A program made the position numbers and the translations under genes. This document shows positions 24,197-54,479 of a stretch of 64,000 nt of DNA, one piece after another (position 1 is the first letter of the stretch; the number at the start of each line of letters is the position of its first letter). Under the pieces are notes generated by a model. It had not been told where the DNA came from. It was given only the letters and a program-made list of their open reading frames with translations, and ran no database searches. The stretch is from Anadara kagoshimensis (lineage: Eukaryota; Mollusca; Bivalvia; Arcoida; Arcidae): the NCBI GenBank assembly GCA_021292105.1, contig CM037869.1:62001-126000 (forward strand). The letters are read 5' to 3'.

Positions 24197-24390
24197 TCAC
24201 ATATGTCCTTCTTTTCTCATGACATCAGAAAACGCCATGTTATCATATTCATTCGATAGAGACTTTAATGGTTGTTTTCTTTTATATATCACATAACCAA
24301 CTATTATAATCAGAACTATAGCAGCAAACGTTCCTAATCCAATACTAAGTCCTGCTATCTCTTTTGTTGTCAACTCTGCCTTTACCGCTT
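24197..24390 (-). CDS. EGF gene, last exon: transmembrane helix and cytoplasmic tail
   Basis: After an AATATCAG acceptor (phase 1) it encodes a juxtamembrane stretch EAVKAELTTKE, then the helix IAGLSIGLGTFAAIVLII-IVGYVIY (about 25 residues, hydrophobic), then KRKQ as a stop-transfer signal. The tail of about 28 residues ends NEYDNMAFSDVMRKEGHM and TGA at 24199-24197. YDNM fits both the Grb2-type pYxN and the PI3K-type pYxxM SH2 motifs, so tyrosine signalling is possible (inference). Confidence 0.85.
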
Positions 24391-27300
24391 CTGATATTAA
24401 AAAAAGTTAGAAAAATTAAAAAGCAACACAGAAACATCTACAAAAAGAGTACATCAATCAAAACGTGTTAAGGCCGCAAATGAATAGATAAGTGGGATTT
24501 ACCTGTAGCCTTTCTTTCAAAATCACTGATGACTAGAGATTAAATAATCAAATTACTTTCATATCTCAGGTAATGGGAATCAAGTCGTGACCTCTCACTA
24601 ACTACGGGTTTGATATGCATGGACCGGAAATAAAACTGTTATATGCCACAAAAACACTAAATAAATTAACTCTATCTACAACTTCATTAACAACTGATTG
24701 AGACATAATAAAAAGTAACATCCTTATCTATGTCATGCAAGTTTAATCTAGAAATGATATTGAACATACACACTTGGTAGTTAAAGACTATGTTATGTTA
24801 CAAAGGATGTATATTTACTTGAGTTTTAGAACCATCGAGATATTTTCTATCAAAACCATTGATGAAACAAAATTTGTATTCACAATATTGCTACAACATT
24901 CAGAACTAGTAAGCTATGTAGGTTAGCTAGCAGGAATGGTACCTGCATTTGAATCTTGGTAACCATACAAGGGGATTTGAAATGGACAGTAACCATTCTG
25001 TCGCCAGCACTCATTTTTTTGTTTTGAAAAAAATTAACCTTTGCTATTGTATAACACTTAACTGTTTACAAAGTCAATCATAACGGACGATATACTTAGG
25101 TTGAAGCAAACTATTAGAAGAGAGTAACGTAAATCATTTTTATTTATATTGATTTTAATATTTAACAACGGAGCAAGCTGCCTACCAATAAATTGTTTAC
25201 CCAGGAATATTGCAAGTCAAGGCTCATCAGAGCCCTCAAAAAATGTTATGGCCGTCATCACAGTACTGTTGATAAGTTTGATGTCTCTGTGTCCAGGATT
25301 GCCCTGAATATATTTGATGTCCCATAATTCCATGTTTCTTTCACTCAATTTTTATTACGCATGTGATAGATGTAGCTAGCTGAACAGGAGGTGCTTACCC
25401 TTCCAGAGTACTAGATCTCACTTCCCTGGTGTAATTCCATGTGTTTATCATGATTTAGCAGTTTTAAAGTTTTTACTTTGCTTCGTGATTGTTATTTGGA
25501 CATGGATATGTATGCTTGGTTTTGATTACGTCACTATGCAGCATTTATATGTAGATCTATACTTACCAGGTTGTGTATGAATCTGGCCTGCAAAATACAA
25601 AAGAAGTATGTCATTATTTAAGGGTTTCAATATAATAACAACTTGCAAAATTTGAATATTGCACTAAATTTGTGAAAACTTCAAAACAAGATTTTTTATT
25701 TCATGAAACCATGAAACTGACCAGCAGCACTACACTTTCCATCCATATAGTATTGAAAAACATGTAAAACACCTTGAACATGAAACAAAACAAGTTTTGG
25801 ATTATAATAGAAGAAAAAAGTTTACATTAAATGTCTTATGATTTCGAATGTCAAATTTTCTCAAATAGGATTTTAAAAGAAATATTGTATAAATCTCAAT
25901 CTAAAGATCATGAATATTTAAAATGTCATACATTAAAGAATAGAAAGTTTTACTTTACCTTTTTATTGTGACATGGACATGGATTGATTTGTTTGTTTTT
26001 GATTACAATGGGTCCTTTTACATAATGATGGACGAACACTACAGTCATATGCAAGTAGATTGCAATGTAATTTGATTCTTCCAAAATATTTAATCTGATA
26101 TTAAACAACAGATGTTAAGCACAAGTTAATAAACATTAACTAAATAGTTTTTTGCCTTACCGTCCTCGCAAAAGACACCAGTATAACCTTTTGGCAATTA
26201 CAGATATATTTCCCATCTTTTAATTCACAGCTACCCTTGTTTTGGCATGGTTCTGCTGTCGGGTGGCATTGTTTCACTATACATGATAAAATAACAATTA
26301 CTGTCAAAGAATGAGTGAATAATCTGGTGCTTGTATTATCTTTTAAATAATTAAATTAACAATGTAATATTAGACATAGAAGGCTGTGGCCTATTAGCTT
26401 TAACATCTAGGTGCATTATTGAAGAAAAAAGAAATTTTATTTTAGTGTATTCATTTGGTATTATCTTTTAGAATTGTGTCTCTTATTGCAATCACAAGGT
26501 AGTATGAAGCATGGAATTCTGTGGACTATTAGTTTAGAACGTTATACAGCAGCGTGTCTCTGATATTTCTATTCAAAGTCTTTATTTTACCTCCTCTGAT
26601 TAGTTTAACCAGGAACACAATTGTTATATCAATGGAATTGCAAATGATGATCAATTTAAGACAGAAATTTGCGGGTAATATACGAAACAATGCAATACCT
26701 AGCGTGAATCGCTAACAAACCAGTGTAAATTACCCAGGAAAAGAAAGTTTTTTTTTCAATTATTGAAAATATACCAATACCATTGTCTCATTTAACAGTC
26801 CGTAACAAATTAGAAAACAAGCGTAAATGTTATGTAAACGTTTTTATAAAGAAAAAAATGAAAAACGTTTTATTAATGAAATTGATTTTTATAACAAACT
26901 ATTTCACAAAGCAGCGGAATAACGCTGATGATTGTGTTTTATATTCTTTATATGAAAAGTGTTATAAACGTAAAAGAAACTTCGGTGATACCTTTTTAGA
27001 ATATCACGAAATCAAGATAGTGTCAACCTTGTTCTACTGTTGTACAATACTAAATTAACATGCCACTGATTGTAGTAAAAGTAAATAGTTTGAGGTCCTT
27101 AAAATGGTCAAAACTGAACCCCAAGAACTTTGATTCCAAATATCAAATCATCTTAGGGGTCAAAAAGATAAACAGGTAAGAGGCCATAATTTTGTAAATG
27201 CCCGATTCTTGTGTAATGTACCAAAAAGATAGAATATTTCATGATAGGTCATTTATTTCCTAATCTTCTAATTAAATAGTTTTTTTATTGTATTCCAACA

Positions 27301-30300
27301 ATCATATTAACAATTAAAGCAGACTTATACAGGGAGATATAAATATATTAATAATTATACGTAACTAAACAAATTTAAACGAATATAACACACGGAAAGT
27401 ATTATAATTTATTAGGAGTACCCATGTCAAAACAAAGGGATAAGAGTCTTGTTGCAGGTGTAATGATATAAGCAATCATAAAAAATAAACCCAAATATTT
27501 TCTTTTTATAAAAATTGTACTTTCGGCTATATTTTTATATAAGGTAAAATACTCAGGTCATCCTCATGTCAATAACCAGGCAAACCTTGTACCTCTAGGC
27601 GATTATTCAATAACTTACAGTCTGGTCAATACATAATGTATACACCTTGTCTAATTGACCTTAAAAATCTTGATATTTGGTAAAAGGCTAGGTCACGTTC
27701 TTCCCTTCTGTTACCTAACAGAAGAGTTTATAAGGTTGTTGCATGCGTCACTCGACACACACACACCTGGACACACATTTGGGCATCTACACACAGACTC
27801 AGCACCATACACAGTGCATCAATCCCGGAAGACACTACACACAGACAAGGAGTGTTCTACTGAACTGTTAAAGAATCAAAGTACAAACAAGACCAAAATG
27901 CTTTAATTAATATTACGCCACAGCTCACAGGACTACAGTACACAGGTGCTAAATAGAAAAAAAAACTACCATTATTACCTGTCTGGCACCGGTCACCTGT
28001 GTAGAGTTTAGGACAGCTGCACCTATTTCTGTTACAAGTTCCTCCATTCTCGCAAACTTCTTTGATATTGTCACAAGCAACAACATCTGACAATACATAT
28101 AACAATATAACACTAATTATTAAGAACTGACTCTAATTTCGTTAGTTTTTTGTGATGCAAAACCTAAAAAGCATTGTTCAGTAAATAGTATAAAAACATA
28201 TCTTGCAGACATTTAATTTTAACTAAATTTAATAAATACACTGATCGGTTATATTTCAATTTGTTTGTTGTTGTATTGTGATTTAAACATGTGCTGGTAT
28301 GTTTGTTTTTTTATATGATCAGCTTCTCTTTTTTAAATCGTACACGGCAATCTATTACATAGATTCACGACTACCAATTAGCTTTAAACTCCGACGTTAA
28401 GGTAAAAAGGCCTCGTGGTATAGATTTATAAAATCTGAATTGGATGATTTCAACTCCTTCAAAAGTTATTGATTAATCCATGTCTAAAGTCGCCTAAATT
28501 TACTTAATCGAATTGCCACAAGATGTTAGGGTTAGCCTAACCCTTAAGTTGTGTAACTTCTCGATAAACTTATTTCGTGTTAGTTGTTTCCGCCTGTGCT
28601 CTGAACACAATGAAACTCAATTTCTGTCTAATGAATAGTGTGCTATCTGCAAAACAAGGGATTGAAGACGATATCAGCTTATGACAAACCTAGGAAAAAG
28701 GCTCATTGTCTATGATTAAATTTTAATGCAAAGTCTAAAAATGATGACTGTTTGTGACTTTTTAGAGGAGATAGATACTGAGAAATACTCACCACATAAC
28801 GTCCCTGTATACCCATTAGCCATAAACACATATATAATATTTATATAATCCTTGCACTTCGCTCCATTCTGACAAAGTTTATTGCCACATTTAACTGTAT
28901 CTATAACATATCAAAGTGAAAATGATACTCTGTATAATGACTATTACACAATCTGAGTTCAATGATCTAACATTTAATTGTGCACTGAATACTGTCTTGG
29001 CACAGTAGGAAATACGGCGAGTCCTTATCTCAACATGTGTATGCAATTCAAACGTAGTTGGGTAATTAGTTGAGAAGTTATCGTACCCGTATAAATTATT
29101 ATAAGTCACTGAAATTTATTCCAATTGCCTTAGCAATAAATCTTTTCGGTTTCCTTGGGGTCCATCATCTACAACTAGCCACCTCAAAAGAAGATAATAC
29201 GCGACTAAAGCTGATCCAAACACCCATTAACTAGGCTTGTAGGTTTATATATCTACACTAACTCAATTTCTCAGTTTCAAAGTTTTAACTTTGCTTTAGG
29301 ATTGTGATTACTAGTATCTGGCGTCTTTATAAGGCTGTAAAGCAGAAATATCGACTATAAGCTAATTTATATTATCGTTTTTCATAGATTGGTATATGTT
29401 CTAAACACGTCTGGGAACTAAAGACATTAAAAGAAAGAGGGTTTATACATGTACTTACTATTTGTGCTTGTTTTAGATACTGTAAAAATAAAGAAATAAA
29501 AAATATAGTTAAACAAAAAAACGATGAAATAATTGCCAAGGTTGGACAGTAGAAAACCAAACGTGAAAATAAAAATCATAATAAGATCATTGACATACAT
29601 TAAGATTATTGAAGATTTGATAGAATGATATTTTATTGTAGCAAAAATGAACACTTAAAATGTTCCAATACTATTTTTCATCCAACTTCTTGAGATGAAA
29701 TAAAGATTGTACTGGAATTAGAAAAACACGTGACTCATATTGATGCCTAACGCTACACTGTATCACATATCACCTAATTGTACTGTTTATACTGCAAACT
29801 GCCGGACGTAGCTAGATAAACGGGAGGTGCTTACCATTCTGGGTTTTAGCTTTGCTCTGGGATGGTGTTTGACGGATTGGTATGTTTGGTTTTTACTATT
29901 AAGATTCTCAATGAGGTTTAATTATTCTTATAAATTGATGTTTAAATAACTCAAATAAGTTCTACACGTACGGCTAGTCACACAGATCAAGTAAAATTTA
30001 TATTCGTCAAACCTGTCTAAAGGCCACCCAAGGAAACCAGTATAAGTGGCCTTGTAGACAGGTGGTCCTAATACAGAGGTGACCTTTAAGACAGGTTGAC
30101 TGAACTGTTGGGTTTTTTGTTTTTATCACCGATAATTCATTTAAGTACAAACATATTTTATTACCATTATATTTTGTCAGCTCGAATACCTTCACGTCTT
30201 TGTTTTGACATTTTGTTTTAGAACAATTGCTTACTTTTACAATGGGGTCCGCTGAATCCAGGTTTACATAACAGAAGCTGTGGAAATTAAGGAAATGTTT

Positions 30301-33300
30301 ACATGTTCCGCCATTGTAACACGTGTGTTCTAAACAGGTTTCTGTAACCAATCTAAACAGGATAAAAAATAAAATATTAAAACAATTACACCTGTTAACT
30401 GTGTATTGTAAAACAGTATCAGAAATAGCGATAATTTTGAAAGATTTTTCAGTTATATATTTCACAAACATTAATAACAGATAATTTAGGTTTTATTTAT
30501 TGTCGATGTGAAAACATTATTTTTTTTTACATGATTTCTACTTTTATAAGGTTCGTGCGTTTTGGGTCACACACGCTAACAAAGAGCAAGCATTTTAAAC
30601 GCTCTAGTTACTTTTCTATCGTCATTTTAAGAGGATTAGAGCTGTTTAAAAACGACATCTTACGATCACAACATGTCATTGTACACGTTCGATTATAACT
30701 CAAACATATATCCAATTCGTCTGCCGAAGTTAGGTGGTTTTCATCGGGCACTACTATTTCTCGTCTTGCATGGACTCACCGCCTCGATATAAGAGAATCT
30801 TTGTTGGGACGTAATGCAACAGTACTCAATTTATCGATTTGTTGGTGTCCGAGTTGGTGGCCAAGCAGTATAATTGAACATTTTTACAACATACTGGGGC
30901 CAGAGACACAAATCTTAATTCAAGTGATGCACTGATCATGATTTAGTTAATTACATATATTACCGGTTTTAATTTAATCACTAGACGGTCATTTTGGAAT
31001 GCATTTCCTCAAGTGGTTGGACCAATATTATGATACCAAAAATTATTTTTCCAAGATTTAAAAAAAGCCCAAAAGACCGTTATAAATATATTTAACCAAA
31101 TTTGCTGAGGAAAAACTAATTAACTTATTTCAGCTTCATGTAACTGGGCCTGGTTGTTTGGCATATTGTAATGACTGATCAAAAACAAACATACTAATCC
31201 ATGTCTAGTGACTTGGTCAGGGTGTTTTCGAAATTTTAAGATTTTGCAACTTGTATCGAGAGGTGACCAATTATTGTGGAAATATACAACTATACAACTC
31301 GGATGAGGTTTCTATGTCGCCTAATTAATACCAGTTTTTACCAAGTGTCACGTTTCCATCCTTGGTGTTTAGGCTGGTGAAAGAACTTTAAAGATCTTAA
31401 AAACTTATTTCAAAATGTACCGTTTAGCTCTGCCTTGCCACTAACTGGTATTTTTTATGAATTAGTAGGTCTAGTGATATATAACATATTTCAATTATAC
31501 ATGTATTTAAACAATATGATATACATACGTGGTGCTAATGTTGTCGTCGTAACTGAAGATAAAAATAAAACATAATATTCAAATACGTCTAAATAAACTG
31601 CATAGTTATGTAATTTCTTTATAATTTGTCATTGTGATCAATATACTTCCAACGATGAGAATTTTGTTATCTAATTTAGCTTAGCTTAGCTCTTTCTTGT
31701 TTTTTTTTTTGTTTACTGTTGTGGTTATTTTACAGGGCCTTGGCTGTGTTGATTTCTAATTTTATTGGAACCTATCCCTGCGTCAACCATTTTTATAAGC
31801 ATCTTGCTTCGTTGTGTAAAGTTCCCGTTGTAAAGTTAAAGCAGACAACATAGGTTCCAATAAAATTAGAAATCAACACAGCCATAGCCTTGTAAAAAAA
31901 CCACAACAGTAAACAAAATAAAAATATGAAAGAGTAAGCTAAGCTAAAATAAGGACTTCAAAATGTTTTGAGGCCATCATCACAATAATGTTGAAGAATA
32001 ATGGTTTTTTCTGGATATATTTGACCTCCCATAGCTCATGTTCCTTTCATTCTCAATTTTGATTACATATGTGGTGGGTGTGGCTGACTACAGTAGATGC
32101 TCACCCTTACGCCTTACGGAACACCCTGACTGACTGACATGTAAAACCTAATTTACCAGCTCAAATGTTTTTACTTTGCTTTATTATTGTTGTCTGGACA
32201 CAGTAAGTTGTGTTTCTTTTTGATCGTCTGTTTCTAATGTTATTGTTTGTCCAGTTTATCTTTTATCAGATGCATACTACAAATGGACGTTAAATTCTCA
32301 TATTAAGGGTTCTCTCCTAATTGGATTGAATATCACTCTGACCACACGGTTTGATATATAAAAATCACAAACACTAAGGAAAAGAAGAAGAAGTTTTACG
32401 TTATATGTTTTTTTACTTACTGTTCGAATCTTTCGAAACTAGAACAAAGAACAAGAAAGTAAAATAAATTTAATTTCCTAAAAATAATAAAAATATTTAA
32501 TGACATGTACTTTATCTGTCATGTTTTTTGTTATCACAGTTTTAAGGTTGGTTTTTAGATTATTTCTCATTTCATTCGTTATAATTGCCGTGTTCTTATT
32601 TTCATCTTGCCACGCAAGTTTTCACTGAAAAACCTGGATTTATATTCTTCTTCAGAAAAACAGATTTATTTATATTTCAACTACACATACTTGTACATTA
32701 TTATTATTATCATGTGCTTTGGTGACATCAGAAATGAACAAATTTAATGATATAGGTGTAAATTTTAACTTGTATTGCAATTATATATTGTGCAAGTGCT
32801 TTAACCGGTCAATGTATTTTCCGTATCGACAGACCGGAAACTATTTCAGAACACCTGCTTGTCAAATAAACCTTAAAGTCATAGATAAACGACCATTCAA
32901 GTTGACAAAGTGTGTTTTCCAGAGCACACGTATCATTTCCCTGGTGGAGGTTACGTGTCTAACCTGACTTGTAAGCTTTAAAATGTTTACTTTACTTCTG
33001 GATTGTGATTCGGACATGGATTAGTATTTTTTACTTTGTTTCTGGATTGTGATTCGGACATGAATAAGTATGTTTGTTTTTACTTTACTTCTGGATTGTG
33101 ATTCGTACATGGATTAGTATGGGTTTTTTACTTTGTTTCTGGATTGTGATTCGGACATGGATTAGTATTTTTTTTTTACTTTGTTTCTGGATTGTGATTC
33201 GGACATGGATTGGTATGTTTGTTTTTACTTTGGTTCTGGATTGTGATTCGGACATGGAATAGTATGTTTGTTTTTTCTTTGGTTCTGGATTGTGATTCGG

Positions 33301-42300: not shown

Positions 42301-45300
42301 GTTGAAGGAGATTTCTAATGGCGCGGAATGTTATCATTTTTCGTATTTTCTTTACCTTTACTTTAATTTGATTTCATTGAACATTTCGTTTATATTTAAT
42401 AAGCATTTTAAAGGTGTTCCTGCAACACTACATTGGTATGTTTTGTAGCTTAATTAAAACATATATGTAATCCAGCAACCATTATGATCCAGCTTGTAAA
42501 GTTTGAACAATATTACTTAACCCGTTCTAATTGGCAGCACTAGACGGACGTTTCGGAATAACATTCTTCTGTAGTGCTTGGACCAAAATTTTTAAATTTA
42601 AAGAATAATTTAATATAAAATTATAAGTTCTTAATTGTGTTACATTAATGATATACAAATACTGTATGTTATGATTGTATGTATTTGGGCGAGGTTATAT
42701 AGGAGTTACCTCCCATGACTCTGACGTCACTAAGACGTCACAACCACAGTTGAAGTGCGACCATGTATCCAGAGTAAAAGTATAAAATATGTTTCAACAA
42801 AGCTTTGAATATTATCACAAATTACTTCACACCTCTCGTACCCCTGTATTCTAAAGTTGTTTTTTATCATATCTGATTCATGAATAATTAATTCACGTGG
42901 CGTTTACCTAATTAAAACATGTAAGCATGAGTGAAAGATGTCAATGTGTTGTATTTTGTGTTAGGTTATATTTTTTGCAGGAGTCAATATTTATGTACAT
43001 ATTTAGTACATAAAAAATATGTAAGCAGTATTTATTCGTACAAATACACCAAAACGATACACATTCATAATTTATAGTTCCAACATTTTAGTTCATGTTA
43101 CCTACCAATTTCACAAAATGTCCCGTTATACCCCGGGATACATGTACATATTCCATTCTCACAAGTTCCTCCGTTTTGACATATGTTGTTGTGATCACAT
43201 TGCGTTGCTGTAAATTAACAAAGTGAAGATATGTCAATGTGCCATTTTATACACATATTACTTAAGCTTCATTGTTGGTGGACAACATATCACTCAGACC
43301 ACAACACACAATGCACCAAAAATATTTCATGCGATATTAATTCAATGCGTAAACCTCAGCGTCGCAAGTATTTTAATAAAACGAAACTGTCCTTTTGGAG
43401 TTTTCGGAGCAAATTGTTGTCGGCCATTCTGTTATTCCCCGCCAACTGTTGAAGGGGTATAGTAATACCGGTGTGTGTGTGTGTGTGTGATTTGGTTTCC
43501 GTGCGTTTAAGAGAGAACCGTACATCCGATTGAGCTGAAATATGGTCAGTTGATTATGGTGGCGAGTGGCATAGGATTGCGGCAGCCTTCACATATCGAA
43601 ATGGCTGTCGTTATCTTAAATAGCAAAAACCTATAAATGGACATTACAGCCTTATTTATGTACCGATTGTGTTGAAATTTTAAACATAGACAATATATCT
43701 AGAACCCGTGTTGTTAAAAATATTTAACGAGGTTTTCTGTATAACCTTTAGTTTATGAAATAGGCTGTATCTAAATTGGCCGCTGTTACTGTATAGCCAA
43801 ATCCTATATATGGCCATTGCTGTCTTATTTATGTACCAATTTTGTGGAAATTCTAATCATAGAACATAAAGCACGGGATATTAAAATTTGTAACAAAATG
43901 TATCTGTTATAACTGTTACATTTTTGTTTTGTATGCTAAAGCATGTACTTAATGCTGATGTAATCAACTAATATATATTACCTATCTCACAGACAACTAA
44001 TATATATTACCTATCTCATACCTATCTCACAATCAACTAATATATATTACCTATCTCATACCTATCTCACAGACAACTAATATATATTGCCTATCTCATA
44101 CCTATCTCACAATCAACTAATATATATTGCCTATCTCATACCTATCTCACAATCAACTAATATATATTATCTATCTCATACCTATTTCACAGACAACTAA
44201 TATATATTACCTATCTCACAAACAACTAATATATATTACCTATCTCATACCTATCTCACAAAATGTACCTACCTATCTCACAAAATGTACATACCTATCT
44301 CACAAACAACTAATATATATTACCTATCCCATACCTATCTCACAAACAACTAATTATAATATATATTACCTATCTCATACCTATCTCACAATCAACTAAT
44401 ATATATTACCTATCTCATACCTATCTCACAGACAACTAATATATATTGCCTATCTCATACCTATCTCACAATCAACTAATATATATTGCCTATCTCATAC
44501 CTATCTCACAATCAACTAATATATTACCTATCTCATACCTATTTCACAGACAACTAATATATATTACCTATCTCACAAACAACTAATATATATTACCTAT
44601 CTCATACCTATCTCACAAAATGTACCTACCTATCTCACAAAATGTACATACCTATCTCACAAACAACTAATATATATTACCTATCCCATACCTATCTCAC
44701 AAACAACTAATTATAATATATATTACCTATCTCATACCTATCTCACAAAATGTACATACCTATCTCACAATCAACTAATATATATTACCTATCTCATACC
44801 TATCTCACAAACAACTAATATATATTACCTTTCTCATACCTATCTCATAACTATCTCACAAAATGTACTTACCTATCTCACAAAATGTACTTACCTATCT
44901 CACAAAATATACATACCTATCTCACAAACAACTAATATATATTACCTATCTCATACCTATCTCACAGACAACTAATATATATTACCTATCTCACAAACAA
45001 CTAATATATATTACCTATCTCATACCTATCTCACAAAATGTACCTACCTATCTCACAAAATGTACATACCTATCTCACAAACAACTAATTATAATATATA
45101 TTACCTATCTCATACCTATCTCACAAACAACTAATTATAATATATATTACCTATCCCATACCTATCTCACAAACAACTAATTATAATATATATTACCTAC
45201 CTCATACCTATCTCACAAACAACTAATTATAATATATATTACCTACCTCATACCTATCTGACAGACAACTAATTATAATATATATTACCTATCTCATACC

Positions 45301-48300
45301 TATCTCGTACCTATCTCACAAAATGTACCTACCTATCTCACAAAATGTACATACCTATCTCACAATCAACTAATATATATTACCTATCCCATACCTATCT
45401 CACAAACAACTAATTATAATATATATTACCTATTTCATACCTATCTCACAAAATGTACATACCTATCTCACAATCAACTAATATATTACCTATCTCATAC
45501 CTATCTCACAGACAACTAATATATATTACCTATCTCACAAACAACTAATATATATTACCTATCCCATACCTATCTCATACCTATCTCACAGACAACTAAA
45601 ATATATTACCTATCTCACAAACAACTAATTATAATATATATTACCTATCTCACAAAATGTACATACCTATCTACACAAACAACTAATATATTACCCATCT
45701 CATACCTATCTCACAGACAACTAATATATATTACCTATCTCTCAAACAACTGATATATATTACCTATCTCATACCTATCTCACAAAATGTACATACCTAT
45801 CTCACAAACAACTAATATATATTACCTACCTCATACCTATCTCACAAACAACTAATTATAATATATATTACCTATCTCATACCTATCTCACAAACAATTA
45901 ATATATATTACCTATCTCACAAACAACTAATATATATTACCTATCTCATACCTATCTCACAAAATGTACCTACCTATCTCACAAAATATACATACCTATC
46001 TCACAATCAACTAATATATATTACCTATCTCATACCTATCTCACAGACAACTAATATATATTACCTATCTCACAAACAACTAACATATATTACCTATCTC
46101 ATACCTATCTCATACCTATCTCACAAAATGTACCTACCTATCTCACAAAATGTACATACCTATCTCACAAACAACTAATATATATTACCTATCCCATACC
46201 TATCTCACAAACAACTAATTATAATATATATAACCTATCCCATACCTATCTCACAAACAATTAATTATAATACATATTACCTATCTCATACCTATCTCAC
46301 AGACAACTAATTATAATATATATTACCTATCTTACAAAATGTACATACCTATCTCACAAAATGTACCGTTGAAGCCATCCTACAGTTACATTCTCCATTA
46401 GAACAAGCCCCGTCGTTTTTACACAGTACACTGTTGTCGTTACATTTATTTGCTGTAAAATATTATGTTGACTTTAATATATAATAAATGATTTACTAAT
46501 GACACGATTACACTCAAAATGTTTTTTCAGCTGTAGTCAGCAATCGTAAAGGAGAACATGGCTTTACCATCACCATGTCAATATGAAAAAAAACTTAGCA
46601 ACGGTAAAGAAAAACATGGCTTTACCATCACCATGTCAATATGAAAAACACCTTAGCAACGGTAAAGGAAAACATGGCTTTACCATCACCATGTCAATAT
46701 GAAAAAAACTTAGCAACGGTAAAGGAGAGCATGGTTTTACCATCACCATGTCAATATGAAAAAAAACCTTAGCAACGTAAAGAAAAACATGGCTTTACCA
46801 TCACCATGTCAATATGAAAAAAAACCCTTAGCAACGGTAAAGGAGAACATGGCTTTACCATCACCATGTCAATATGAAAAAAAACCTTAGCAACGGTAAA
46901 GGAGAACATGGCTTTACCATCACCATGTCAATATGAAAAAAAACTTAGCAACGGTAAAGGAAAACATGGCTTTACCATTACCATGTCAATATGAAAAAAA
47001 AACCCTTAGCAACGGTAAAGGAGAACATGGCTTTACCATCACCATGTCAATATGAAAAAAAACCTTAGCAACGGTAAAAGAAAACATGGCTTTACCATCA
47101 CCATGTCAATATGAAAAAAAAACCTTAGCAACGGTAAAGGAGAACATGGCTTTACCATCACCATGTCAATATGAAAAAAAACCTTAGCAACGGTAAAGGA
47201 AAACATGGCTTTACCATCACCATGTTAATATGAAAAAAACCTTAGCAACGGTAAAGGAAAACATGGCTTTACCATCACCATGTCAATATGAAAAAAAACT
47301 TAGCAACGGTAAAGGAAAACATGGATTTACCATCACCATGTCAATATGAAAAAAAACTTAGCAACGGTTAAGGAAACATGGTTTTACCATCACCATGTCA
47401 ATATGAAAAAAAACCTTAGCAACGGTAAAGGAAAACATGGCTTTACCATCACCATGTCAATATGAAAAAAAAAACTTAGCAACGTTAAAGGTAAACATGG
47501 CTTTACCATCACCATGTCAATATGAAAAAAAACCTTAGCAACGGTAAAGGAGAACTTGGCTTTACCATCACCATGTCAATATGAAAAGAAACTTAGCAAC
47601 GGTAAAGGAAAACATGGCTTTACCATCACCATGTCAATATGAAAAAAAAACCTTAGCAACGGTAAAGGAGAACATGGCTTTACCATTACCATGTCAATAT
47701 GAAAAAAACCTTAGCAACGGTAAAAGAAAACATGGCTTTACCATCGCCATGTCAATATGAAAAAAACCTTAGCAACGGTAAAGGAAAACATGGCTTTACC
47801 ATCACCATGTCAATATGAAACAAAACTTAGCAACGGTAAAGGAAACATGGCTTAACAATCACCATGTTAATATGAAAAAAACCTTAGCAACGGTAAAGGA
47901 AAACATGGTTTTACCATCACCATGTCAATATGAAAAAAAACTTAGCAACGGTAAAGGAGAGCATGGTTTTACCATCACCATGTCAATATGAAAAAAAAAA
48001 CCTTAGCAACGGTAAAGGAGAGCATGGTTTTACCATCACCATGTCAATATGGAAAAAAAACCTTAGCAACGGTAAAGGAAAACATGGCTTTACCATCACC
48101 ATGTCAATATGAAAAAAAACCTTAGCAATGGTAAAGGAAAACATGGCTTTACCATCACCATGTCAATATGGAAAAAACCTTAGCAACGGTAAAGGAAAAC
48201 ATGGCTTTACCATCACCATGTCAATATGGAAAAAACCTTAGCAACGGTAAAGGAAAACATGGCTTTACCATCACCATGTCAATATGAAAAAAAACTTAGC

Positions 48301-51300
48301 AATGGTAAAGGAGAACATGGCTTTACAATCACCATGTCAATATGAAAAAAACCTTAGCAACGGTAAAGGAAAACATGGCTTTACCATCACCATGTCAATA
48401 TGAAAAAAAAACTTAGCAACGGTAAAGGAGAACATGGCTTTACCATCACCATGTCAATATGAAAAAAAACTTAGCAACGGTAAAGGAGAACATGGTTTTA
48501 CCATCACCATGTCAATATGAAAAAAAACCTTAGCAACGGTAAAGGAAAACATGGCTTTACCATCACCATGTCAATATAAAAAAACTTAGCAACGGTAAAG
48601 GAGAACATGGCTTTACCATCACCATGTCAATATGAAAAAAAAACCTTAGCAACGGTAAAGGAAAACATGGCTTTACCATCACCATCTCAATATGAAAAAA
48701 AAAACCTTAGCAACGGTAAAGGAAAACATGGCTTTACCATCACCATCTCAATATGAAAAAAAAAAACCTTAGCAACGGTAAAGGAAAACATGGCTTAACA
48801 ATCACCATGTCAATATGAAAATAAAACTTAGCAACGGTAAAGGAAAACATGGCTTTACTATCACCATGTCAATATGAAAGAAACTTTAACCTCATCAGCA
48901 CATCTGCATACACCATTCAAAATGCTTTGATTAAAAACACAGTTAAATACCAATACGTAAAATAACAGTACGTAAAAATACCAATATTAAAAAAAGTGCG
49001 TAAAAGTAACAGTACATAAAATTAACTCCGTAAAATAACTGTACGTAAAACGAAAGTACGTAAAAATATCAGTACGTAAAATAACAATTTAGTTTTGTGC
49101 TAAATGTGAAACTGTATGACAAAGGCAGTGACTTTATTTTTTGTAGTCAAGTTTTCTTTTTATGCAACACTTATGCCTGCTTCCCCTGCTTACAATGTAT
49201 TTCTATCACGGTAGAGCTTGTTCCCACTATGGGAACTTTGTACAACGAAGCAAGCTGCTAACAACTAAATTGTTGATTCTGATATACTTGACTTTCCATA
49301 TTTCCATGTTCCTTAAGTTCCCAATTTTGACTACACACGTGACGGATGTAGCAAAAACATTCCGGAACACCCTGCTTCATTTCTCACTAGAAGTGCACCT
49401 GTATAACTTAATTTGCCAGCAAGATTGTGATTTGAACACAGAATTGTATTTTTGTTTTTTACTTTAATTAGGGATTGTGGTTTGGAGATGGATTGGTATG
49501 CTTGTTTTTATTTTGCTTTAAGATTGTGATTTGGACATGGATCGTGATTTGGACATGGATTGTAACTTGGATATATATGTATTGTGATTCGGACATAGAT
49601 TTTTTACTTTGCTTTATGATTGTGATTTTGGCATGAACTGGTATGTTTATGTTTGATATTTGGATTGTGATTTAGACATGGATTGTGATTTTGACACGGA
49701 TTGTAATTTGGACATAGATTGTCATTTTGACCCGGATTGACATTTGGAATGGATTGTCATTTTGACCCGGATTGTAATTTAGACATGGATTGTCATTTTG
49801 ACCCGGATTGACATTTGGACATGGATTGTCATTTTCACCCGGATTGTCATTTGGACATAGATTGTCATTTTCACCCGGATTGTCATTTGGACATAGATTG
49901 TCATTTTGACCCGGATTTTCATTTGGACATGGATTGTCATTTTGACCCGGATTGTAATTTGGACATGGATTGTCATTTTGACCCGGATAGACATTTGGAC
50001 ATGGATTGTCATTTTCACCCGGATTGTCATTTGGACATAGATTGTCATTTTGACCCGGATTGTCATTTGGACATGGATTGTCATTTTGACCCGGATTGTA
50101 ATTTGGACATGGATTGTCATTTTGACCCGGATTGCCATTTGGACATGGATTGTCATTTTGACCCGGATTGTCATTTGGACATGGATTGTCATTTTGACCC
50201 GGATTGTCATTTGGACATGGATTGTCATTTTGACCTGGATTGTCATTTGGACATGGATTGTCATTTTGACCTGGATTGTCATTTGGACATGGATTGGTGC
50301 CCTTGTTTTGACTTTTTGTATTAACGTTACCTGTTTCACATCTTGAACCCGAGTAATATGGCGTACATCTACACGTGCCGAAGGTAGTAGAACAAGTTCC
50401 GCCATTTAAACATCCGTCGTTACTATGGTAACACATAGCTGTAATGGTTCAAACATATATATCATATAGTTAATCTGGTTTTTTTCACTTGACTGGCCAA
50501 AAACTCCACTATTTTTAGCTTAAAAGGAATGATTGATAGCTCTTACATCACAAAATGACCTAACCAAATTATAATGATAAAAGAAAGTGGTATTGGACAC
50601 CTGGTCACAGGCTCAAGATTGGCATCATTTCTTTTAAGGATAAAAATGTGTTGTTGTTGTTGGACATAGAATATTTTCAGTTTGAAGTAAAAATTGAAAA
50701 TTTTACAGAGTGTGAACAAAGTCTGGCATTATACTTCCTAATAAAATAATAAAACTAGACAAAATTATTAAATGTGGCTACAATCTCCGAAAAACGAAGT
50801 TTATGTAATAATAAATATGGTATAGTAAATGAAGACTTTGAGAACCTGAAAACAATCAGAACTTACAAATGTTTGTCTGCTTTTTCAGTGTTGAAGCAGG
50901 GGTCATTCTTTTAAAAATTAGGTTAATGTCAAAGGTCAAGGTCATGACTTAAACATTATACTGGTGCTAGTAGTTTATTTTTGAAGAATTTAATTTTGAT
51001 GAGTTGTAAAATGAAGTGATGGTCAAAGGGTGGAGTCATGACCTTATGACCTTATTAACAAAGATTGAATTCAAATAATTTGACTATATGTACAATTACT
51101 GACATGAGTTCTAATATATGATATTTTTTAAAAATATTGTTCAAAATACCGCCACAGATGAAGGTCATGATCCATGGTTTTGGCAATTGTGTTTTTTATC
51201 AACACAACTTGGCTATTTGAAAATATTTCATTTTATTTTAACAGTTGACATCTGTTAATACTTTCTAGACATTATTTAAGTATATTTAGTCCATTTCGGA

Positions 51301-52600
51301 AATCATTTATATATTCAGACACATGAGTAGTTTGTCGTGTGTGTTTCTGTCATGATGAGCGATACAAGGCATCCTACCTCTAAGGGTTTCGCAATAACTT
51401 CCTTTGAACTCTAGAGGACACATGCACATTTTGACGAACGGTAAGCATTTTCCACCATTTAAACATTCATCATTGTTATCACATGATCCTTTACACACTA
51501 CAAAATAAATGTATACAAAAACGGTCATTTTTAAACGTAGAACATGATGCCCAATATCTTCAGGCGTACGAAATGAAAGTCACGGAAACTTACAATAAAT
51601 GAGGCCCCGTGTCACGGTAGGCTTGGCACGAAAAAGAACCCTGCTGAATAATGCCATCAGCGCAACGCACAACACAGGAAATAATTTATGCACCTTCGCC
51701 TACAGCTGGCGACGTCTCGATATAAGTGAAATATTCTTGACTGCGACGTTAAACACCATTACTCAACTCACTTCTTTAAGCGTATAAAAAATAAATTACG
51801 ATTTCAAACTTCAAGTCAACACTTACAATTACACTACCACATTGGGTAGCACATTTACCTTAGTAAATCTTATATAACATTTATTAGTGTACTACTGCTC
51901 AGAACCACTCCGTCTAACCTGTGGTTTATTATAAGGTGGTTTATTATATAGCTATACAGCTTCATTATGTTTTGTAATGATTTTTACTTCTGTACTTATA
52001 TATATATATGTTAAGGGCAGTCTAGTCAATTGATGTGTAATAAGATGAAGTTGACTGTATTGAAGATTTGGTAGACGTACATCTCCAATCAAACAAGAGA
52101 TGGTAAGCTATTTAGATATAGATCTGATCCGTCTAAAGAAGACAATTGGTTATTTGGTTTACAATATTGGTTATTGTCCTGGTCCATAGAAACAACATCG
52201 ATATATTGCAATCACACAGCATCGATATATTGCAATCACAAACTTCTACCAATGACTTATACACGCATGACCCTAGTGTTATGTTGTATCTCTCGTGTAT
52301 CTCTAAATCTATCACTACAGAGAGAGAGAGAGAGAGATCATGCCTATTTCCTTATATGCAAGATCTAACACCTTCGTAGTGACACTTTTAAGTAAATGGG
52401 AAAAAACCTTTTACAAGACTCTATGACCCCTTACACTTATTGGGGGCGACTTCAACAGCCAAACAAATCTTACCGTTAACAGAAATTTTGCTAACCTTCA
52501 AACCTAGCTTCAACGGCCAAACTAACCATCAGTAAAAAATCTTACCTGCGATGTAAATTCCAACATAAATTAGATATGTAAAGCCGTAAAGTCCTTTCAT
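24197..52600 (-). CDS. multi-EGF single-pass transmembrane protein with Ser/Thr microexon linkers (gene span)
   Basis: Twenty coding exons are recognised on the minus strand, all with GT-AG junctions. In order: signal peptide, EGF1-4, a 10-residue linker, EGF5-8, two linkers (6 and 8 residues), EGF9, a 7-residue linker, EGF10-12, two linkers (7 and 10 residues), transmembrane exon. All junctions are phase 1. The protein would be about 560 residues, type I, with its EGF modules outside the cell; adhesion or receptor/ligand roles are typical of such proteins, but no specific family is recognised. The EGF modules lack the D-x-D/N-E start of calcium-binding EGF. EGF3, EGF9 and EGF12 are one base short and EGF10 lacks two cysteines, so the copy may be damaged or contain base errors. 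Introns hold about 11 kb of tandem arrays. Confidence 0.75.
24503..24532 (-). CDS. EGF gene, 30-nt microexon
   Basis: Acceptor CTCTAG, donor CTACAG|GTAAAT. It encodes VISDFERKAT in phase 1-1. A nearer acceptor (CATCAG) would give 23 nt and break the frame, so the outer one is preferred. Confidence 0.5.
24600..25566. mobile_element. intron with an RT-element tail fragment
   Basis: From about 25145 to 25560 the plus strand carries GAGCAAGCTGCCTACCAATA, GATGTCTCTGTGTCCAGGAT and TGAACAGGAGGTGCTTACC, all parts of the same dispersed tail. Non-functional. Confidence 0.6.
25567..25587 (-). CDS. EGF gene, 21-nt microexon
   Basis: Acceptor TATTTTGCAG, donor CCTG|GTAAGT. It encodes GQIHTQP in phase 1-1, a short linker between EGF12 and the membrane. 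Confidence 0.55.
26161..26276 (-). CDS. EGF gene, EGF12 exon, one base short
   Basis: Acceptor CATGTATAG, donor GACG|GTAAGG. It reads KQCHPTAEPCQNKGSCELKD, then GKYICNCQ. The expected continuation, KGYTGVFCED, appears only in the next frame. The exon is 116 nt where 117 would keep phase 1-1. The shortfall lies in the A-run after the fifth cysteine. All six cysteines are present across the two frames. Confidence 0.75.
26280..27978. other. intron, no exon recognised
   Basis: AT-rich. The 91-codon plus-strand ORF at 26783-27058 is lysine-rich and matches nothing known to me. Short CA-rich words occur at 27756-27850. Confidence 0.45.
27979..28086 (-). CDS. EGF gene, EGF11 exon
   Basis: 108 nt, phase 1-1, acceptor TATTGTCAG, donor GACAG|GTAATA. 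It encodes ACDNIKEVCENGGTCNRNRC, then SCPKLYTGDRCQT. All six cysteines and the NGGTC core are present. Confidence 0.9.
28793..28894 (-). CDS. EGF gene, EGF10 exon, degenerate
   Basis: 102 nt, in frame, acceptor AGATACAG, donor TGTG|GTGAGT. It reads KCGNKLCQNGAKCKDYINII, then YVFMANGYTGTLC. Cysteines 1-3 and 6 are present; the C-x-C pair (4 and 5) is replaced by F-M. A neighbouring frame shows TGT-TTA-TG at that place, which suggests small deletions that cancel out. The module would fold poorly as a standard EGF. Confidence 0.75.
29459..29479 (-). CDS. EGF gene, 21-nt microexon
   Basis: Acceptor TATTTTTACAG, donor AAATA|GTAAGT. It encodes VSKTSTN in phase 1-1, a Ser/Thr linker like the other microexons. 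Confidence 0.55.
29800..29990 (+). mobile_element. RT-element tail fragment
   Basis: GTAGCTAGATAAACGGGAGG, TGCTTACCATTCTGG and GATTGGTATGTTTGG match the dispersed tail. Non-functional. Confidence 0.5.
30235..30341 (-). CDS. EGF gene, EGF9 exon, one base short
   Basis: Acceptor TTGGTTACAG, donor TAAAA|GTAAGC. It reads ETCLEHTCYNGGTCKHFLN, then FHSFC. The rest of the module, CKPGFSGPHCK, is in the next frame. The exon is 107 nt where 108 would be phase 1-1. The shortfall lies between cysteines 4 and 5. If translated as written the frame runs on into the intron. Confidence 0.75.
30715..30840 (+). mobile_element. SINE body fragment
   Basis: CTGCCGAAGTTAGGTGGTTT, CATCGGGCACTACT and CCTCGATATAAGAG match the body of the tRNA-derived SINE at 21.1 kb. 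The head is missing. Confidence 0.55.
31529..31552 (-). CDS. EGF gene, 24-nt microexon
   Basis: Acceptor TATCTTCAG, donor CACCAC|GTATGT. It encodes VTTTTLAP in phase 1-1. Four threonines in a row suggest an O-glycosylated linker. Confidence 0.5.
31674..31950. mobile_element. fold-back element with arms of about 100 bp
   Basis: The left arm (31674-31780: TTAGCTTAGCTCTTTC, GTTTACTGTTGTGG, GGCTGTGTTGATTTCTAATT) is repeated inverted at 31846-31950. The spacer holds an inverted scrap of the RT-element tail (GCTTCGTTGTGTAAAG). The RT tail resumes on the right at about 31957, so the fold-back lies inside that repeat. Confidence 0.7.
31951..32260 (+). mobile_element. RT-element tail fragment
   Basis: GAGGCCATCATCACAATAAT, GGATATATTTGACCTCCC and GTGGTGGGTGTGGCTGAC fit the dispersed tail. 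Non-functional. Confidence 0.55.
32421..32438 (-). CDS. EGF gene, 18-nt microexon
   Basis: Acceptor TTGTTCTAG, donor GAACA|GTAAGT. It encodes VSKDSN (or ISKDSN, depending on the base before it) in phase 1-1. At six codons it is the shortest linker exon found here. Confidence 0.45.
32994..33450. repeat. minisatellite, period about 38-50 bp, about 10 copies
   Basis: Units carry TGGATTGTGATTCGGACATG and end in variable T-runs. The unit is the end of the dispersed RT-element tail (GGATTGTGATTTGGACATGG), amplified in place. Confidence 0.9.
33496..33600 (-). CDS. EGF gene, EGF8 exon
   Basis: 105 nt, phase 1-1, acceptor TTTGTTCCAG, donor GAAACAA|GTAAAT. It encodes AKPCNDVEVICKNGGTCRGG, then LCNCPSGYEGTFCET. 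Six cysteines. It is the duplicate of the exon at 35179 and differs mainly at T/I and PS/VH. Confidence 0.9.
34810..35130. repeat. minisatellite, second copy, about 7 units
   Basis: Same unit as 32994-33450, carried along by the duplication and since diverged in copy number. Confidence 0.9.
35179..35283 (-). CDS. EGF gene, EGF7 exon
   Basis: 105 nt, phase 1-1, acceptor TTTGTTCCAG, donor GAAACAA|GTAAAC. It encodes AKPCNDVEVICKNGGICRGG, then LCNCVHGYEGTFCET, with six cysteines. Sister exon of 33496-33600. Confidence 0.9.
36703..36847. mobile_element. palindromic fold-back element
   Basis: The left arm TTTATTGCCTTTGAGTGAGG, GAGATATGA, TTCTTCACCC, AACAAGTCA is mirrored on the right as TGACTTGTTAAGGGTGAAGA, TCATATCTCCCTC, AAGCAATAAATTG. 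The arms are about 70 bp and meet at about 36765-36780 in a GAGGACGAAGCC centre. No ORF. The site could be prone to cruciform formation. Confidence 0.75.
37145..37480 (+). mobile_element. RT-element tail, plus orientation
   Basis: ATATATTTGACGTCCCATAG, TAGCTAAACAGGAGGTAC and CCTGGTGGAAGTGCTCGTG match the tail. It meets an inverted copy at about 37480 (..GAATTAGTAT then CAAAAACAAACATACT..). Non-functional. Confidence 0.7.
37480..38400 (-). mobile_element. retroelement with reverse-transcriptase domain, possibly Penelope-like; 5'-truncated fossil
   Basis: The best copy of the dispersed family. The frame at 37803-38396 holds reverse-transcriptase motifs in order: IGIPMGTNCAPLLADLFLY, YRYIDDVLSL (the Y-x-D-D site), YPSELEIKDTTD, SASYLDLYLKYD and KLYDKRDDFNFSIVNFPFL. 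The non-coding tail follows (37480-37800). The copy is truncated at its 5' end and broken, so it is a fossil. Penelope-like is my best guess from motif style; no GIY-YIG endonuclease is present to confirm it. It is inserted in the intron just below EGF6. Confidence 0.7.
38422..38526 (-). CDS. EGF gene, EGF6 exon
   Basis: 105 nt, phase 1-1, acceptor TTATTATATAG, donor GACAC|GTAAGT. It encodes DRCKNDDPCLHGGVCQFILG, then TCKCSTHYTGRRCET. Six cysteines. The RT-element insertion begins about 25 bp past its donor. Confidence 0.9.
39112..39412 (+). repeat. dispersed repeat
   Basis: GCCCGCCTACCAAAGAG..AAGGGGATATTAATTTCG, then TCATGAAACTTGGTACAAAG and GGAGTTATTGGCCTTTCAA. The order is typical of a non-coding bivalve repeat that often leaves short ORFs, as here. 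Confidence 0.5.
39445..39552 (-). CDS. EGF gene, EGF5 exon
   Basis: 108 nt, phase 1-1, acceptor TACTTTCAG, donor CTTCAG|GTAACA. It encodes GPSSGCQNGCKNDGFCVLNK, then CFCHPDFTGDTCEIPS. Six cysteines, with an unusually short C1-C2 spacing (C-Q-N-G-C). Confidence 0.85.
39951..40747. mobile_element. pogo-type non-autonomous element with TA target duplication
   Basis: The ends are CAGTAAAACCTCTCTAAACC (39951) and GGGGAGGTTTCACTG (ending 40747), flanked by TA on both sides. The GTCCGGTTTAGAGAGG terminal motif is repeated inside near both ends (39978-40033 and 40548-40740). There is no transposase ORF; the minus-strand ORF at 40555-40944 is spurious. Confidence 0.85.
40790..40985 (-). mobile_element. 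RT-element tail fragment
   Basis: CATCAAAAACAAACATGCCA, GTGAACTTCCACCAG and GTAAGCATCTCCTGTTTAG match the dispersed tail in reverse. The 30-bp array begins right after it. Confidence 0.6.
40989..42064. repeat. 30-bp minisatellite, about 36 copies
   Basis: The unit contains GTTAGGAACAG, TTATATACTTG and TCCAGAAT. Most units are identical; a few have single-base indels. Because the period is 30, ORFs of about 100 codons open in plus frames; these are artefacts. The array ends 26 bp from the 30-nt microexon donor. Confidence 0.95.
42090..42119 (-). CDS. EGF gene, 30-nt microexon
   Basis: Acceptor TATTTCAG, donor CTCTCA|GTAAGT. It encodes DTLSSTTTTL in phase 1-1: seven of ten residues are Ser/Thr, as in mucin-like linkers. 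Confidence 0.6.
42183..42247. repeat. (CA)n microsatellite
   Basis: A CA run of about 30 units with one break, starting ACACACAAACACACCAAC. Confidence 0.95.
43106..43207 (-). CDS. EGF gene, EGF4 exon
   Basis: 102 nt, phase 1-1, acceptor AATTTACAG, donor AATTG|GTAGGT. It encodes TQCDHNNICQNGGTCENGIC, then TCIPGYNGTFCEI. Six cysteines, 34 codons. Its 3' end (TTTTGTGAAATTG|GTAGGT) is close to that of EGF3. Confidence 0.9.
43420..43930. repeat. dispersed repeat with GT microsatellite
   Basis: CCCCGCCAACTGTTGAAGGG, a GT run at 43471-43488, then two copies of a motif around GGCCATT..CTTATTTATGTACC. Non-coding. Confidence 0.5.
43961..46348. repeat. composite tandem array made of an EGF exon end and its splice donor
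   Basis: About 2.4 kb of mixed units: CCTATCTCACAAAATGTAC, CAACTAATATATATTACC and CCTATCTCATACC. Read in gene sense, one core is TACATTTTGTGAGATAG|GTA. These are the same bases that end the EGF3 exon (46349-46368) and start its intron. The array begins exactly at that donor. Higher-order blocks of about 300-400 bp repeat. Confidence 0.9.
46349..46452 (-). CDS. EGF gene, EGF3 exon, one base short
   Basis: Acceptor ATTTTACAG, donor GATAG|GTATGT. It reads NKCNDNSVLCKNDGACSNGE, then CNC. The rest, DGFNGTFCEI, is in the next frame. The exon is 104 nt where 105 would keep phase 1-1. The shortfall lies just after the fifth cysteine. Its last 20 nt are the terminal unit of the adjoining array. Confidence 0.75.
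46540..48890. repeat. 58-bp minisatellite, about 40 copies
   Basis: The unit contains ACATGGCTTTACCATCACC, ATGTCAATATG, an A-run of variable length, and CCTTAGCAACGGTAAAGG. Variation is mostly in the A-run (56-60 bp). It lies upstream of EGF3 in the gene's intron. Confidence 0.95.
48940..49090. repeat. short AGTACGTAAAAT repeats
   Basis: About ten loose copies of CAGTACGTAAAATAAC and relatives. Confidence 0.7.
49120..49662 (+). mobile_element. RT-element tail leading into a minisatellite
   Basis: GCTTCCCCTGCTTACAATG, CGGTAGAGCTTGTTCCCAC, CTTTGTACAACGAAGCAAGC and GTGACGGATGTAGC match the tail; its last motif, GGATTGTGATTTGGACATGG, then repeats and grades into the 36-bp array. Non-functional. 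Confidence 0.7.
49663..50298. repeat. 36-bp minisatellite, about 17 copies, open in all useful frames
   Basis: The unit is GGATTGTCATTTGGACATGG plus ATTGTCATTTTGACCC. In gene sense it reads DNPCPNDNPGQN. The frame is continuous with the EGF2 exon through its donor, giving a 254-codon ORF ending at 49672. Open frames on the other strand and in a second minus frame follow from the 36-bp period. Confidence 0.9.
50331..50438 (-). CDS. EGF gene, EGF2 exon
   Basis: 108 nt, phase 1-1, acceptor CATTACAG, donor AACAG|GTAACG. It encodes MCYHSNDGCLNGGTCSTTFG, then TCRCTPYYSGSRCET. Six cysteines. If the donor is not used, translation continues into the 12-residue repeat next to it. Confidence 0.9.
50460..51377. 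other. intron, no exon recognised
   Basis: Contains scraps of the 'gaccttga' dispersed repeat (AGGTCAAGGTCATGACTT near 50933). Nothing else supported. Confidence 0.45.
51378..51497 (-). CDS. EGF gene, EGF1 exon
   Basis: 120 nt, phase 1-1, acceptor TATTTTGTAG, donor TAGAG|GTAGGA. It encodes CKGSCDNNDECLNGGKCLPF, then VKMCMCPLEFKGSYCETLR. The six EGF cysteines are present, plus an extra cysteine (C-K-G-S) directly after the signal peptide. Confidence 0.9.
51599..51775 (+). mobile_element. SINE with GAGGCCCCGTGTCACGG head
   Basis: The head GAGGCCCCGTGTCACGGTAG and CTTGGCACGAAAAAGAACCC, the middle CACCTTCGCCTACAGCTGG and the tail TCTCGATATAAGTGAAATAT and GCGACGTTAAACACC form a SINE family I know as common in molluscs. 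It lies antisense in the intron between the signal-peptide exon and EGF1. Confidence 0.8.
52319..52336. repeat. short (AG)n run
   Basis: Nine AG units. Confidence 0.9.
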
Positions 52601-54400: not shown

Positions 54401-54479
54401 AATTCCACGTGGGAAGTGAACTTATCGATTCATTCAATTTTGTATGAAATATGGACATTTCAATATTTTGAGACTGCAC

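Follow-up and report, generated by a model that had tools for sequence, protein, structure and literature searches.

A multi-EGF membrane protein gene model with three frame-broken modules among phase 1-1 exons in the bivalve Anadara kagoshimensis

Can a gene built of symmetrical exons lose individual modules to frameshifts and still encode a working product? This question is raised by a locus in a window of 64,000 nucleotides from the genome of the bivalve Anadara kagoshimensis (contig CM037869.1, positions 62,001 to 126,000; all positions below are those of the window), in which a gene model of 20 exons runs on the minus strand from 52600 to 24197. The model consists of one signal-peptide-like exon, 12 exons encoding a single EGF domain each, 6 proposed microexons and one membrane/tail exon, and each of its 19 introns has GT-AG ends. 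The first exon (E1, 52546..52600, 55 nt; this and all exons below are on the minus strand) carries the start codon and a hydrophobic stretch, MKGLYGFTYLIYVGIYIA, and ends in phase 1 at a donor that scores 11.7. The last exon (E14, 24197..24390) encodes a membrane segment of 19 residues with a mean hydropathy of 2.65, followed by a tail of ~28 residues that contains NEYDNM and by the stop codon at 24197; both terminal exons were assigned from translation and hydropathy. The Y-D-N-M stretch in the tail resembles a Grb2-type site.

The cysteines set the frame in which the phases of the EGF exons were assigned. In this frame every one of the 12 starts in phase 1, and 9 of them also end in phase 1, namely, E2 (51378..51497, 120 nt, seven cysteines), E3 (50331..50438, 108 nt), E5 (43106..43207, 102 nt), E6 (39445..39552, 108 nt), E7 (38422..38526, 105 nt), E8 (35179..35283, 105 nt), E9 (33496..33600, 105 nt), E11 (28793..28900, 108 nt) and E12 (27979..28086, 108 nt). 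The remaining three, E4 (46349..46452, 104 nt), E10 (30235..30341, 107 nt) and E13 (26161..26276, 116 nt), each fall one base below a multiple of three, so that they end in phase 0 and break the reading frame; E4 in addition contains a stop codon at its 3' end. Furthermore, E11 is degenerate, with four of the six cysteines, the missing ones being read as the fourth and the fifth. Two pairs are related by duplication, E4 with its paralog E5, and E8 with E9. When 10 of the 12 EGF exons were compared individually to Pfam, whole or in part (E5 and E8 were left out), five, E2 (23.8 bits), E6, E7, E9 and E12, passed the cut-off of an EGF model on their own. No EGF match over the cut-off was obtained with E3, E11 or the pieces of E4, E10 and E13 scanned alone; the E13 piece reached 15.9 bits with the EGF_CA model, below the cut-off of 27.

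The effect of the short exons on the product is readily traced. Joining all 20 exons breaks the frame in E4, and joining the 17 exons other than E4, E10 and E13 yields an open frame for a type I membrane protein of 453 amino acids. Added back singly to this join, E4 leads to a stop within E4 itself after 128 amino acids, E10 to a stop in E11 (355 amino acids) and E13 to a stop in the last exon, ahead of the membrane segment (430 amino acids). The 15 internal exons that are left can be combined into 32,768 subsets, all of them free of stops. The sequence-only reading, that is, an earlier description of this DNA from its letters alone, had proposed a multi-EGF membrane gene in which every exon is in phase 1 on both sides, so that any exon could be skipped without a frame change. 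Its coordinates, its twenty exons with GT-AG ends and the multi-EGF membrane character all stand. The uniform phase does not, as it applies to 9 of the 12 EGF exons, and frame-neutral skipping accordingly extends to the 15 internal exons other than E4, E10 and E13, the inclusion of which breaks the frame.

We consider it about even (a probability of roughly 0.5) that this is a single gene for a type I surface protein, the working product of which omits E4, E10 and E13, with exon symmetry sparing the rest. Such a product would comprise a signal peptide, a stalk of one-exon EGF modules, six short linkers of which four are rich in Ser/Thr, a single membrane segment and a short tail, and might function in adhesion or as a receptor stalk. 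The phase 1 introns on either side of the modules allowed duplication, as seen in E8/E9 and E4/E5, and permit skipping with the frame preserved. E4, E10 and E13 are each one base short and E11 has lost two cysteines, and the most likely working product would leave out the first three. The broken exons retain good splice sites (donor scores of 7.7, 7.4 and 10.6 for E4, E10 and E13, respectively), and thus nothing in the sequence itself says that they are skipped. Should these modules be truly broken and skipped, the locus would be a clean natural case of exon symmetry that allows a modular gene to survive the loss of single modules.

The signal-peptide-like start, the C-terminal membrane segment and the short tail are all present in the model, as in a class 1-1 multi-EGF type I protein. 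In a Pfam search with the 453-residue join, EGF_2 and EGF matched in seven stretches each, and the models over the cut-off were EGF_TEN (2e-42; 145.8 bits, cut-off 65), EGF_2, EGF, EGF_Teneurin and, by a small margin, EB (25.1 bits, cut-off 24.3); the EGF_TEN match is not specific, given that the generic EGF models match as well. There was also a weak match to GPR128_N, and no match to EGF_CA, the calcium-binding EGF model, at E values up to 1. In the PDB, the matches fall on EGF regions from Notch, Delta-like 1, teneurins and others, with those of Notch-1 and Delta-like 1 as the best. Notch, Delta-like and Draper/MEGF-type receptors are multi-EGF single-pass membrane proteins; Notch and Delta are defined by the DSL domain or by LNR and ankyrin repeats, and Draper/MEGF10 by an N-terminal EMI domain. 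The product modeled here shares their general layout but lacks these domains, as none of DSL, LNR, ankyrin and EMI appears among the Pfam matches of the join at E values up to 1.

The teneurins come closer in one respect. The model resembles them in having very short linkers between the EGF modules of a cell-surface protein, alternatively spliced in teneurin and proposed here, and in matching the teneurin-EGF Pfam models. Unlike this protein, teneurins run on into NHL, YD-shell and other folds, none of these C-terminal folds being matched by the 453-residue join in Pfam, and their orientation in the membrane is opposite to that of type I proteins. Splice insert A of mouse Ten3, which places 9 residues between EGF7 and EGF8 and was proposed as a possible spacer that alters the geometry of the EGF domains (PMC11058771), is, among the matches listed in the literature searches, the nearest documented parallel for the short inter-EGF linkers, which are themselves proposed here from sequence.

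The modules can also be set against an established class. Class 1-1 modules are flanked by phase 1 introns on both sides, which leaves them open to duplication and shuffling (PMC3927616). Nine of the 12 EGF modules here are flanked in this way, as in class 1-1 extracellular genes; the three frame-broken modules and the short proposed linker exons between modules set the gene apart from these. The micro-exon genes of Schistosoma (PMC10526429) are made up of exons of 6-81 bp, mostly multiples of three, that are separated by long introns and encode a small secreted product. The likeness consists in the brevity of some exons, most of them divisible by three, and in the long introns between them; in contrast, 6 of the 20 exons here are of 18-30 nt and E1 is of 55 nt, the 12 EGF exons are of 102-120 nt, and there is a membrane segment. 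Literature searches on micro-exons together with EGF-like domains in molluscs, on EGF exon duplication in bivalves and on bivalve microexons retrieved no paper, and among the matches listed for exon shuffling in molluscs, judging by title and opening of the abstract, none concerned such a gene. A search on phase 1 symmetric microexons with EGF domains turned up one paper, unrelated by its title, and one on symmetric micro-exon genes a review of schistosome transposons. The suggestion of the sequence-only reading that the layout belongs to no named family is upheld for the exact arrangement, in that only EGF-type models and EB pass the cut-off, but not for its parts, which are well known. The kind of gene is already familiar, with class 1-1 EGF modules and teneurin-like short linkers in an otherwise ordinary multi-EGF gene; freshest are the frame-dead modules that exon symmetry could tolerate, the N-x-T sites at the junctions of two microexons and an intron packed with repeats of its own donor site.

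The evidence for the linkers themselves is uneven. The six proposed microexons are m1 (42090..42119, DTLSSTTTTL, 30 nt), m2 (32421..32438, (V/I)SKDSN, 18 nt), m3 (31529..31552, (V/I)TTTTLAP, 24 nt), m4 (29459..29479, (V/L)SKTSTN, 21 nt), m5 (25567..25587, GQIHTQP, 21 nt) and m6 (24503..24532, VISDFERKAT, 30 nt). The leading V of m2, m3 and m4, as printed in the sequence-only reading, presumes that a G precedes it; the join of 17 exons has I, I and L at these positions. We ranked the microexons by splice-site score among all 282 open phase 1-1 stretches of 18-30 nt on the minus strand of the gene body, using a generic matrix that was not trained on this genome, and compared the scores with 20 first-order resamplings of the sequence. 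The top score of the 282 belongs to m5, which was unequalled in the resamplings; m2 (rank 2) was matched or exceeded by 0.25 shuffled candidates on average, m3 and m4 (ranks 6 and 7) by 0.95 each, and m1 and m6 (ranks 13 and 14) by 3.6 and 3.95, respectively. Thus, m5 stands well above chance and m2 moderately so; the other four do not by score alone.

Several of the microexons could therefore be chance AG...GT stretches in long introns, a possibility that is compatible with any of the other readings of the locus and that we regard as evenly poised. In its favor, besides the size of the candidate pool and the shuffled scores of m1, m3, m4 and m6, the gene strand contains 14 candidates scoring at least 10.5 in phase 1, and each of the other two phases supplies more (phase 0, 27; phase 2, 15); such a number of high scorers is thus not unusual and provides no argument for the microexons. 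Against it, besides the scores of m5 and m2, stands the amino acid composition. After six of the 14 candidates that lie inside EGF exons were dropped by hand, eight were left, the six microexons together with GCSVRRK and GLKVSKISVN, and the mean Ser/Thr fraction in these is 0.349 vs 0.144 in 18 controls at the same threshold that were not filtered in this manner (Mann-Whitney p = 0.011). The controls came from the plus strand of the gene body (4), from positions 1-24 kb (9 minus, 2 plus) and from beyond 57.4 kb (2 minus, 1 plus). The six Ser/Thr microexons of the sequence-only reading are in this way partly supported, by the group enrichment and by the scores of m5 and m2; four fall short by score alone, and two, GQIHTQP and VISDFERKAT, are not Ser/Thr-rich.

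Both m2 and m4 end in Asn, and in the 17-exon join an N-I-T site spans the junction of m2 and an N-N-T site that of m4 with E11, the sole other N-x-S/T site in the join being N-G-T in E5. If these microexons are spliced in and the sites are glycosylated, such junction-spanning sites would tie glycosylation to the choice of linker. The additional candidate GLKVSKISVN (52503-52474, score 13.9) shares VSK-x-S with m2 and m4. Alignment of the DNA of the six microexons and GLKVSKISVN with 40-base flanks (21 pairs) revealed no convincing relation; the best pair, m1/m3, was reached by a fraction of 0.045 of 200 shuffles, and the match lies in the flank.

Three broken modules and one that lost two cysteines are many among 12 for a gene under selection, and this counts against a working gene. 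The locus might instead be a young, decaying pseudogene, in which frameshifts are accumulating but have so far spared the splice sites and most of the modules; we hold this possible but rather doubtful. Open frames of 2054 and 1350 codons in two other EGF genes of the assembly make uniform assembly noise an improbable cause of the losses, as befits decay. In a DNA search of the 1.115-Gb genome of the animal itself, a loose first look with simple repeats skipped, E4, E10 and E13 each matched only themselves, so that there is no comparison copy for the broken modules, which also agrees with a pseudogene. Conversely, the start, the membrane segment and the stop are open, the 15 other internal exons are free of in-frame stops, and all 19 introns have intact GT-AG ends. 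The exons E8 and E9 are, moreover, identical at 99 of 105 positions, whereas their flanks agree at 814 of 1006 aligned positions and contain a further 550 gap columns (Fisher p = 0.00025), which implies that the exon was conserved or converted. All six differences between the two change an amino acid and, as read from the alignment, five fall within one block of six bases, which makes gene conversion as possible an explanation as selection; judging from this pattern, the similarity may reflect gene conversion rather than selection.

Alternatively, the gene could be intact and the one-base shortfalls local errors of sequencing or assembly, which we consider unlikely. The 2847 bases of a 51-bp tandem array in the window (54472-57318, ~56 copies, open in several frames) include eight one-base deletions but not a single insertion, which resembles base-calling error, for which such a deletion-only pattern is typical; the rate is close to that of the 12 EGF exons, with 3 shortfalls in 1296 nt. 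Other arrays are less one-sided, one with a single one-base deletion and no insertions in 635 bases and a third with one one-base deletion, one 13-base deletion and one insertion in 1296 bases, and arrays also change naturally. If shortfalls arose at such rates, the probability that the 10,212 nt of open coding sequence in the two other EGF genes contain none would be 4e-11 or 3e-13 (the first figure from 1285 nt, not 1296), values that overstate the case because the two comparison EGF genes were picked for their long frames. The open frames of these genes nevertheless lower the likelihood of assembly noise, and we lean, without certainty, towards true loss of the three modules.

The preferred reading, a surface-protein gene that leaves out the broken modules, overlaps with a further proposal, put forward in the sequence-only reading, that adds regulated use, namely, that the locus is a diversity generator in which microexons and EGF exons are combined into many ectodomain variants. 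That all 32,768 subsets are open and that Ser/Thr is enriched in the non-EGF candidates with the highest splice scores is consistent with this proposal; but openness of subsets is expected in any class 1-1 gene and is silent on use, and four of the six microexon calls are weak, so regulated diversity appears quite improbable. Most improbable of all is that the broken frame of E13 is functional as a switch, with the exon, when kept in the absence of E4 and E10, shifting the frame to give a soluble ectodomain and, when skipped, the membrane form, even if a stop in the last exon usually escapes nonsense-mediated decay.

The locus and its surroundings are rich in repeats. The intron directly after E4 contains a 2.3-kb minisatellite (43979..46315, minus strand) that is built of the end of E4 and its 5' splice site, with 98 occurrences of ATAGGTA and 16 exact copies of a 20-base stretch spanning the junction; it harbors 23 donor-like sites that score at least as high as the real E4 donor, and the remaining 26 kb of the gene body have 31. 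On the minus strand, sites resembling acceptors and donors abound in a 58-bp array (46539-48883, ~40 copies). After E3 lies a 36-bp array (49662-50296), the unit of which resembles the motif ggattgtgatt...gacatgg of the arrays at 32986-33438 and 34812-35122. A frame of 258 amino acids runs from E3 into this repeat (49672-50448) and was evaluated as a coding extension by intron retention. The array is, however, also open over 208 amino acids in a second minus frame and 170 on the plus strand, and such openness in three frames is a property of the repeat, not of coding; the E3 donor scores 9.1. The extension was rejected.

Apart from the arrays, a reverse transcriptase remnant (37803-38402, minus strand; RVT_1, 17.1 bits, below the cut-off of 29.6) has a related stretch at 49099-49286. 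In four other open frames of the window, Pfam found nothing over the cut-off, and neither tRNAs nor Rfam families at the gathering score were found in the window. Copies of a dispersed element, ~61-83% identical by pair, occupy 25165-25526, 31951-32224, 37157-37764 (itself an inverted pair) and 40808-40992, and are also present near 3.2 and 5.1 kb. Finally, matches to the EGF exons at C13:15580614-15999251 occur in mirror-image pairs, with the two members on opposite strands, a pattern suggestive of a large inverted duplication involving an EGF gene.
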